Source: Zhihengliuella sp. ISTPL4 (GTDB lineage Bacteria; Actinomycetota; Actinomycetes; Actinomycetales; Microbacteriaceae). From it: a DNA stretch of 64,000 bases. The stretch spans positions 3,068,727-3,132,726 of the forward strand of contig NZ_CP025422.1 in NCBI RefSeq assembly GCF_002848265.1. The letters run 5' to 3'. Each line of letters starts with the position of its first letter. Position 1 is the first letter of the stretch. Made by a program: the position numbers and the translations under genes. Below are positions 44,897 through 56,190 of this stretch, one piece after another. The notes beneath the pieces were generated by a model. That model saw nothing but the letters and a program-made list of their open reading frames with translations. It had not been told where the DNA came from and did no database searches.

Positions 44897-45547
44897 ATGC
44901 CCCGTCAGTCCCCCGCCGTATACCGTCGTCGGCGGCTGGCCGTGCTGCTGGGGCTGATCCTCGTCCTCGCGATCGTCGGAGCCACCGTGTGGCTCCTCGT
45001 CGCCCGGCCGTGGGCGGCCACCGGTGGGCCGGAGTCCGGCCCGGCGCCGACCTCTTCGGTTACCACCGCCCCCACACCTTCCGATTCCGCCTCCCCGGGT
45101 CCCTCGCCGTCGCCCTCCGTTGATGCCACTCCGGCCGTCGTCGCCTGTGAAGCGAAGGACGTCGAGGTGAAGGCCGTGACGGACGCCGAGTCGTACGCGG
45201 ACGGCGCCTCGCCGCAGCTCTCGATCTCCCTCACCAACAAAGGCGCCACGGACTGCACGCTCGATGTCGGCTCCGCGACGCAGGTGTTCACCATCTCCAG
45301 CGGCTCCGACGTGTGGTGGCGCTCGACGGACTGCCAGGAGAACCCGAGCAGCATGATCGCCACGCTCACCGCGGGGTCCACCGTCGTGAGCAAGGAGCCG
45401 GTCGTCTGGGATCGGACGCGCTCCAGCGTCGAGACGTGCGCGCAGGAGAACCGGCAACGCGCGCCGGGCGGAGGAGCGTCGTACCACGTGGGCGTCTCGA
45501 TCGGCGGCTTCCCGGCTGCGTCCACCACGCAGATCCTGCTGTACTGA
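44897..45547 (+). CDS. Membrane-anchored extracytoplasmic protein, DUF4232-like
   Basis: A 216-residue protein with one N-terminal anchor helix (LAVLLGLILVLAIVGATVWL, about 13-32) after a basic start. A Pro/Ser/Thr-rich linker (about 40-75) leads to an outer domain of about 135 residues. The domain begins ACEAKDVEVKAVTDA and continues as a beta-sandwich-like fold with several cysteines (TDCTLDVG, STDCQENP, VETCAQEN), resembling DUF4232. The function is unknown, presumably at the cell surface. It is followed by the small-RNA locus. Confidence 0.65.
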   Translation: MPRQSPAVYRRRRLAVLLGLILVLAIVGATVWLLVARPWAATGGPESGPAPTSSVTTAPTPSDSASPGPSPSPSVDATPAVVACEAKDVEVKAVTDAESYADGASPQLSISLTNKGATDCTLDVGSATQVFTISSGSDVWWRSTDCQENPSSMIATLTAGSTVVSKEPVVWDRTRSSVETCAQENRQRAPGGGASYHVGVSIGGFPAASTTQILLY

Positions 45548-45566
45548 GTCCCGACCGGGATCTGTG

Positions 45567-45595
45567 CTGACAGGGGTCATTCTTTGGGATACCAT
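45567..45595 (+). promoter_or_regulatory. Small-RNA promoter, CTGACA-17-TACCAT
   Basis: -35 CTGACA (45567-45572), exactly 17 bases, -10 TACCAT (45590-45595). The predicted start point near 45602 has no open reading frame of note behind it. Confidence 0.6.
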
Positions 45596-45601
45596 AGAGG
45601 T

Positions 45602-45745
45602 GACTCTCCGCCTATGCGGCAACATGCCATCCCCAGTGGCGTCGAATCACAGCGTCCCCAGCGCTTCGACACCGCCGCTCGAGAGTCCGAGGGCCCTCTC
45701 GAGTACCCCAGTCCCCAATGGAGGACTCGAGAGGGCCCCAATCTT
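45602..45745 (+). ncRNA. Candidate structured small RNA with C-rich hairpin loops (6C-like)
   Basis: A gene-free 240-base gap holds a promoter, a foldable transcript and a terminator. GACTCTC (45602-45608) at the predicted 5' end pairs with GAGAGTC (45681-45687) and closes a branched structure. Inside are CCGC-CTAT-GCGG (45608-45619), GCCA-TCCCCAG-TGGC (45626-45640) and GTCGAA/TTCGAC (45641-45646, 45665-45670), which encloses GCG-TCCCCAG-CGC. A 14-bp stem (45691-45704, 45725-45738) with another CCCC-bearing loop is followed by ATCTTTCTCC. Repeated exposed TCCCCAG loops recall the actinobacterial 6C RNA, but the loops are shorter in C, so identity is uncertain. Confidence 0.6.
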
Positions 45746-45746
45746 T
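45691..45746 (+). terminator. Terminator of the small RNA
   Basis: GGGCCCTCTCGAGT and its mirror ACTCGAGAGGGCCC make a perfect 14-bp stem, followed by CAATCTTTC. Confidence 0.7.
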
Positions 45747-45775
45747 CTCCGGCGCCGTCGCGCCGCGCCGATGCC

Positions 45776-45781
45776 TAAGCT
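45776..45781 (+). promoter_or_regulatory. -10 hexamer TAAGCT, leaderless start
   Basis: TAAGCT, six bases, then the ATG at 45788. Confidence 0.55.
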
Positions 45782-45787
45782 GGAAGC

Positions 45788-46207
45788 ATGGCAGCGAAGA
45801 AGGCGAAGTCCGGGAAGAGCGCGAAGAAGAAGCCGGCCCCCGAGGACTTCCGGTCCGAGGCGCTGGCTCTCGCGCTCGAGAAGCAGGACGTCGCCGCCGT
45901 CGCCCTCGCGCTCCGGCACGGCACCATCGTCGTCCCGCTCATCAAGCCGGGGGCGCGCGACAATCCGCTCGACAGCGGTGAGGTGTGGACCTATCGGGAC
46001 CCGAACTCGGGCGACCTCGCCCTGCTGCTGTTCAGCGATGCGAAGAACAAGCCGGCGAACCTCCCGCCGGGCGTCGGCATCTACGACGCGACCTGGCTGC
46101 GCACTTTCCTGTCGGCGCACCCGATCACGACCGTGTTCCTCGACATCGCCGGGCCGCACCCGATGCAGGCCGACCCCGTGGAGCTCCTCAAGGCGCTCGA
46201 CGCCTGA
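45788..46207 (+). CDS. SseB-like small protein
   Basis: A 139-residue soluble protein with a lysine-rich start (AAKKAKSGKSAKKKPAPEDF). The rest resembles the SseB N-terminal fold: RSEALALALEKQDVAAVALA, then VPLIKPGARDNPLDS, DLALLLFSDAKNKPANLP and HPITTVFLDIAGPHPMQADP. Its function is not established. It is placed between the small-RNA locus and convergent radA, with its own leaderless promoter. Confidence 0.55.
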   Translation: MAAKKAKSGKSAKKKPAPEDFRSEALALALEKQDVAAVALALRHGTIVVPLIKPGARDNPLDSGEVWTYRDPNSGDLALLLFSDAKNKPANLPPGVGIYDATWLRTFLSAHPITTVFLDIAGPHPMQADPVELLKALDA

Positions 46208-56099: not shown

Positions 56100-56190
56100 G
56101 GTGACGTGTCCGAGCGGCCGAAGGTGCAACTCTCGAAAAGTTGTGTAGGGTAACCCCCTACCGTGGGTTCAAATCCCACCGTCACCGCCA
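56100..56190 (+). tRNA. tRNA-Ser(CGA)
   Basis: A complete class II tRNA of 91 bases with encoded CCA. The acceptor stem is GGTGACG / CGTCACC, the anticodon stem is CAACT / AGTTG with loop CTCGAAA (anticodon CGA), a long variable arm follows (GTAGGGTAACCCCCTAC) and the T arm is GTGGG-TTCAAAT-CCCAC. Discriminator G at 56187 fits serine. A rho-independent terminator follows immediately. Its 3' end recurs, decayed, at 60243-60264. Confidence 0.95.

Follow-up and report, generated by a model that had tools for sequence, protein, structure and literature searches.

The 64,000 nucleotides analysed here, referred to as the window, contain a gap between two likely genes for which a sequence-only reading had proposed an unannotated structured small RNA with repeated C-rich loops, either a divergent member of the 6C family or a member of a new one. 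The locus thus raises the questions of whether the gap encodes such an RNA, to which family it belongs, and how it might act. Among the trans-acting sRNAs of actinobacteria, few are understood to our knowledge; in the literature excerpts drawn on here, 6C is the example of a widely conserved C-rich sRNA in these bacteria. Searches of the CC-licensed PMC literature listed no paper recognised as covering the RNA of the window. The gap itself is real (positions 45548–45787), and longer mechanical ORFs run across it. Within it very probably lies the gene of a conserved small RNA with a closed branched fold and three exposed CCCC loops.

Promoter and predicted fold of the RNA

The proposed pair of a −35 and a −10 box with a 17-base spacing was recovered on the plus strand (45567–45595). 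The −35 box CTGACA (45567–45572) and the −10 box TACCAT (45590–45595) form the sole sigma-70-like site in the region 45450–45850, for which shuffles gave a mean of 0.0. The sequence GGGATACCA was present at the −10 position, just 5′ of the RNA, in 79 of the 85 relatives, and GACA is frequent at the −35 position of their RNA loci as judged by eye. Conservation reaches further 5′ of the −10 hexamer than a plain −10 box needs and covers the promoter block TTTGGGATACCAT (45583–45595); a regulator or a sigma factor preference may lie behind this extended block.

The predicted transcript of approximately 140 nt (45602–45746, plus strand) folds with a minimum free energy of −72.2 kcal/mol (z = −7.65), a value as low as which was reached by none of 200 shuffles. 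The minimum free energy structure and the centroid structure are one identical fold. As described before, the predicted 5′ end GACTCTC (45602–45608) pairs with the downstream heptamer GAGAGTC (45681–45687), and this helix, termed P1, displays changes on both sides in six of its seven pairs among 81 sequences. The earlier description can be refined by a second closing helix within P1, termed P2, which is formed by GCGGC (45616–45620) and GCCGC (45674–45678) and is changed on both sides in all five pairs of the model-fitted alignment. Enclosed by these helices are two hairpins that both show TCCCCAG in the loop region (45630–45636 and 45655–45661). Hairpin 1 (GCCAT-CCCCA-GTGGC, 45626–45640) has four of five stem pairs changed on both sides. 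Hairpin 2 (45641–45670), in which the helix GTCGA/TCGAC carries AGCGT-CCCCA-GCGCT, shows changes on both sides in two of the five pairs of each of its two helices. The terminator hairpin (45691–45738) consists of the 14-bp stem noted earlier (45691–45704 and 45725–45738) and exposes the third CCCC in the loop sequence TCCCCAA (45712–45718). A second refinement concerns the T tract behind this hairpin, which is weak (AATCTTT); a simple terminator scan of the region called no terminator.

The RNA was assigned to the plus strand because the U–G pairs closing the two hairpin loops, which persist in 77 and 80 of the 81 sequences, would be C–A mismatches on the opposite strand. Protein coding was ruled out. 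The length of the RNA varies from 140 to 150 nt in the 81 relatives and occupies all three classes modulo 3 (34, 30, and 17 sequences), from which we conclude that the RNA is non-coding.

Covariation and loop conservation

The search for compensatory base changes that had been suggested to verify the structured RNA was strongly positive on two alignments and bears out this part of the sequence-only reading. The first alignment comprised 85 sequences (81 distinct), which represent 85 of the 86 matches of the covariance model described below with at least 77 bits; the sequence of genome G117 (77.8 bits), which belongs to another subtype, was omitted. In this alignment, 98.6% of the cells were standard-paired, compared to 29–48% when the partner was slid by one to three columns. 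Changes on both sides were found in 25 of 43 pairs (150 cells), whereas column shuffles gave 8.8 such pairs on average. Since this alignment had been fitted to the model, the sequences were realigned with MAFFT. The resulting alignment supports P1, the hairpins, and the terminator; the RNAalifold consensus derived from it contains 35 pairs, and P2 is absent from it. Here, 98.7% of the cells were paired, compared to 25–51% after sliding, and double changes were detected in 19 pairs. Two trees were inferred from the RNA sequences themselves. They hold 35 and 40 events of double change, most of them in P1 (21 of 35 on the all-column tree), as well as 39 and 42 events with a non-standard pair as the starting or end point.

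The loops are far more uniform. CCCCA is invariant in hairpin 1 and in hairpin 2 (81 of 81 sequences each), and the loop heptamers are TCCCCAG in 77 and 80 of the 81 sequences and TCCCCAA in the remainder. The terminator loop reads CAGTCCCCAATG in 71 of 81. In the fold model, computed for 76 of the 81 sequences, the CCCC stretches of the three loops reach mean unpaired values of 98, 99, and 99.5%, with a lowest single value of 57%; the five sequences that do not contain exactly three UCCCC were skipped in this computation. Because the stems drift and the loops stay constant, the loops are probably the working parts of the RNA. This invariance is equally compatible with the binding of a protein. 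In the terminator stem, 5 of the 14 pairs never vary among the 81 sequences.

Distribution among genomes

A DNA search of 58 genomes including that of the window recovered most of the RNA at E ≤ 1e−28 in 11 genomes, all of the same genus. When 295 genomes from the genus were searched with a covariance model built from the sequences of these 11 genomes, 172 had a match at E ≤ 1 and 167 at E ≤ 0.01. In 82 of these genomes, the score exceeded 100 bits, and the RNA of this group was named type A; the others hold sister types or weaker matches. A draw of 299 genomes from the whole family, processed with the same stricter filters as the genus-wide run, yielded four matches at E ≤ 0.01, all from the same genus, and among 293 genomes of 84 other genera there was none at E ≤ 0.01. 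Scanning named genomes with a type A pattern gave 44 records, 43 of which bear the name Microbacterium, M. maritypicum and M. hydrocarbonoxydans among them, and one the name "Microbacteriaceae bacterium." This agrees with the genus proposed in the sequence-only reading. A phage or plasmid origin was rejected, as there was no match in plasmids or phages and no exact pattern match in viral contigs.

A looser pattern describing the layout of the RNA matched in 153 of the 295 genomes of the genus, compared to 40 of 295 with a match to the reversed control, which reveals a background. Outside the genus, the pattern gave no signal (33 of 293 genomes vs. 35 of 293 with a control match). Many of the layout matches listed resemble tandem repeats.

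Relation to 6C RNA

The 6C RNA (RF01066) goes by the name B11 in mycobacteria. The RF01066 covariance model, which had been recommended for checking the affiliation, did not match at E ≤ 10 in the region 45500–45800. A scan of this region against Rfam at E ≤ 10 returned five rows, all of them microRNA models far below their cut-offs, and in the whole window only a tRNA (56100–56187) reached a cut-off, with none reached at the RNA considered here. In the complete own genome, RF01066 had no match at E ≤ 0.001. A 6C-like element was found there (L230:2485–2556), which scores 33.7 bits and hence stays below the gathering score of 47 bits. It carries hairpin loops with CCCCC and CCCCCC and is located next to the same genes that border 6C in congeners. 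Among the congeners scanned, three (G013, G016, and G020) possess a 6C RNA over the cut-off. In G016 and G020, it lies between genes that, judging from their sequences, presumably encode an acetyl-CoA-synthetase-like and a TadA-like protein; the RNA of the window is not at that position. G013 contains, in addition to its 6C RNA, a type A-like RNA elsewhere (L014). Because a 6C-like element resides at the 6C locus and G013 has both RNAs, the RNA of the window is, on the sequence evidence, best seen as a family separate from 6C. Of the two options left by the earlier reading, the new family is thus retained and the 6C affiliation is given up.

Both RNAs are actinobacterial, similar in size, and equipped with C-rich hairpin loops, and pairing of either loop with G-rich mRNA is likely a shared feature. 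They differ in architecture: in the parts of the study that describe it, 6C consists of two stem-loops with typically six C each (PMC4046766), while the RNA of the window is a multibranch structure closed by P1 with two CCCCA loops and a CCCC terminator loop.

The downstream gene

The gene following the RNA starts with the ATG at 45788. The −10-like sequence TAAGCT (45776–45781, plus strand) is located 6 bases upstream of this start codon. In 60 of the 85 relatives, TA[A/G]GCT followed by a start codon occurs downstream of the RNA at a distance of 0 to 119 nt, and most of the remaining loci have TATGCT or a similar sequence there as judged by eye. In the region from −22 to −3 of 290 crudely called starts in the own genome, TAGGCT was found 12 times (0.3 expected), and this excess next to starts suggests leaderless genes. 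Since the RNA and the next gene each have their own promoter motif, they look like separate units, and the downstream gene is apparently leaderless and part of a separate transcript. Neither its product (139 amino acids) nor that of the upstream gene (216 amino acids) matched a Pfam family at E ≤ 0.001. Genes further away encode GNAT domains and domains that we take to be of the ClpC and RadA types.

Two diverged sister RNAs in the same genome

Three TCCCCA motifs in the layout of the RNA but with free spacers occur at exactly three places in the own genome (none for the reversed-pattern control). These are the RNA of the window and two diverged siblings, type B (C1:2587033–2587169, minus strand), which scores 52.9 bits with the covariance model, and type D (C1:1498217–1498337, minus strand), which scores 21.8 bits (E = 0.198) and is unconvincing by model score alone. 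In total, the model gave six matches in this genome, including two reverse-strand matches to the terminator and a further match with 15.6 bits (E = 4.3). Both siblings fold better than all of 200 shuffles (z = −6.65 for type D and −4.11 for type B), keep the three loops, and have bodies different from that of the RNA in the window. The adjoining genes also differ from those at the window RNA. No Rfam family reached its cut-off on the sibling loci.

For type B, a filter for the terminator motif retained 21 of 26 loci for the alignment (20 distinct rows). The pairs were standard in 98.6% of the cells, and 7 of 46 pairs showed double changes. The inner loops of type B are not fully invariant, as ACCCCA replaces UCCCCA in some sequences. 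Type D was also found in 20 further congeners chosen from the list of pattern matches. All 21 loci entered the type D alignment, and since the pattern through which all of them were found requires the loops, the conservation of these loops is partly by construction. The stems of type D vary, with double changes in 7 of 21 consensus pairs and 97.3% of the cells paired; the 5′ part has no consensus structure on an independent alignment.

The window RNA has the sequence of its terminator stem, GGGCCCTCTCGAG (45691–45738 in the window), in common with type B and with other sister types, although the bodies have diverged; type D lacks this sequence.

Complementary sites at gene starts

Potential target sites of the loops were counted in 464 kb of the own genome (13%), consisting of the window and 20 further stretches with 290 crudely called genes. 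In the region from −22 to −3 of the 290 starts, neither CTGGGGA nor CTGGGG was found, and TGGGGA occurred once, compared to 0.65 expected from the region further upstream. TTGGGG occurred twice (0.2 expected), which is too few to judge. AGGAG was fivefold enriched in the same region. Loop-complementary sites are thus not clearly enriched at these 290 crude starts. The earlier suggestion that the C-rich loops bind G-rich ribosome sites is weakened as far as a general role is concerned: such anti-Shine-Dalgarno action is unsupported by the counts and unlikely. Targets, if there are any, are probably few and specific.

On both strands of the 464-kb sample, CTGGGGA, the complement of the loop heptamer, is rare: it has 35 sites, whereas permutations of its letters average 113, and it ranks 190 of 210. 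Codon bias could be the cause. The window contains 6 sites (9.4 expected), two of which lie within the RNA on the other strand.

Proposed mode of action and alternative explanations

By analogy to 6C and LhrC, we consider it reasonably probable that the RNA acts in trans as an sRNA, its loops base-pairing with G-rich sites in mRNAs. This proposal starts from features read from the sequences, namely structure, strand, promoter conservation, loop invariance, the sister RNAs, and the restriction to the genus. The RNA would be transcribed independently from its own promoter as one of three sister RNAs in the genome. The closed multibranch scaffold and the terminator hairpin would hold out three redundant UCCCCA loops, which would pair with G-rich (UGGGGA-like) sites near the starts of a limited set of mRNAs and thereby alter their translation or stability; the targets and the direction of regulation are, like transcription and pairing, part of the proposal. 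Any single loop might be sufficient, as with B11. For B11 of M. abscessus, the part of the publication drawn on here reports that either C-rich loop represses via a six-G tract in the eccB4 5′ UTR, and compensatory mutations were made for this pairing (PMC10470900). In Listeria, LhrC has three redundant CU-rich motifs, one of them in the terminator loop, according to the section consulted (PMC4132741). The RNA of the window resembles LhrC of Listeria monocytogenes, as known from that section, in having several sister copies per genome and three C-rich motifs including one in the terminator loop. It shares these traits with LhrC-like multicopy C-motif sRNAs, which form a functional class rather than a family: sibling copies are present at three loci, three C-rich motifs include the terminator loop, and redundant action is predicted. 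Phylum, sequence, and fold are different, and the UCCCCA loops contrast with the CUCCC motifs with U runs, the Hfq binding, and the LisRK-dependent expression of LhrC. A further sRNA family within one genome is formed by the csRNAs of Streptococcus pneumoniae, of which the excerpt used describes five highly similar members under CiaR (PMC4507080); the bodies of the siblings considered here are diverged, and the relation to the csRNAs was tested via Rfam.

Other explanations account for parts of these observations. A divergent 6C RNA that was moved or duplicated would agree with the C-rich hairpin loops, the actinobacterial host, and the similar size, and additional 6C copies are reported for mycobacteria in the text consulted (PMC9569102). 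However, the region gave no hit to RF01066 at E ≤ 10, the own genome has its 6C-like element (33.7 bits, cut-off 47) at the 6C position, and three four-C loops stand against two six-C loops. This origin is therefore quite improbable, and 6C membership was rejected on model score, loop make-up, and position. It speaks for a role in cis, as leader, attenuator, or riboswitch of the gene at 45788, that the RNA ends approximately 40 bases 5′ of this gene on the same strand with a terminator hairpin and that the neighbourhood is preserved in many relatives. A leader or riboswitch is unlikely, though, because the −10-like sequence beside its start at 60 of 85 loci gives the downstream gene a promoter motif of its own; moreover, the two structures computed, minimum free energy and centroid, agree on one fold, and other genes adjoin the siblings B and D. 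On the promoter evidence, cis-regulation appears disfavoured, and we regard it as very improbable.

The two hairpin loops might also act on a protein. CsrB and RsmZ are protein-sequestering RNAs with repeated identical loops presenting a GGA motif and with sibling RNAs. Much as these RNAs do with CsrA, the identical loops would titrate a different RNA-binding protein, one specific for hairpins with a different motif, UCCCCA. Repeated identical loops (CCCCA in 81 of 81 sequences in both hairpins) suit a multivalent decoy, and the siblings present the same loops on other stems. The constant loop-closing U–G pairs (77 and 80 of 81) also fit, as does the lack of clearly enriched loop-complementary sites near the starts of genes. 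Against it, no candidate protein is known to us, and none of the CsrA type is implicated; the two hairpin loops lack GGA, the motif being UCCCCA; and the C-rich loops of B11 and LhrC work by base pairing in the excerpts cited above. A decoy is conceivable but appears doubtful, and pairing with mRNA is the preferred reading.

With its C-rich loops, the molecule belongs to a kind of sRNA that is already known; what is new is the family, with its three-loop, multi-sister design. It would constitute a second, separate family of C-loop sRNAs, in which covariation is strong, one cell holds several sisters, and the loops lend themselves to tests by simple mutations. The diverged bodies with common loops would allow for a direct test of whether the loops alone define the function. 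A wider possibility, which we rate as rather unlikely, is that at least three diverged sisters per cell, with nine UCCCCA loops and specific to the genus, jointly titrate a loop-binding protein or co-regulate one shared set of G-rich mRNAs. If true, this would be an actinobacterial counterpart of the CsrB/LhrC logic that arose beside 6C.

Further elements near the RNA loci

Several minor observations were made at the loci of related RNAs. Loci of other species (L012–L014 and L016–L018) have a gene that resembles the downstream gene as judged by eye and is preceded by a diverged RNA whose loops are of the CCCCAG type. In another congener, L162 (G152:C13:5105–5201) contains three closely spaced TCCCCAG motifs that have the look of adjacent hairpin loops and are unlike types A, B, and D, which suggests that further sister types exist. 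Between type B and a gene presumably encoding a cold-shock-protein-like product, a hairpin with a CCCCCC loop was detected (G000:C1:2586896–2586956, minus strand), which scores 28.3 bits with RF01066; other congeners have equally scoring matches in the vicinity of type B. A palindrome of 22 bp without mismatches, TTGTCCCCC-AAAA-GGGGGACAA, lies just past the type B RNA (L272, G000:C1:2586985–2587006); it is the only copy in the genome and may be an operator. Similar inverted repeats were seen by eye 5′ of type A-like RNAs in other species at eight of the nine loci L136–L144, the exception being L140.
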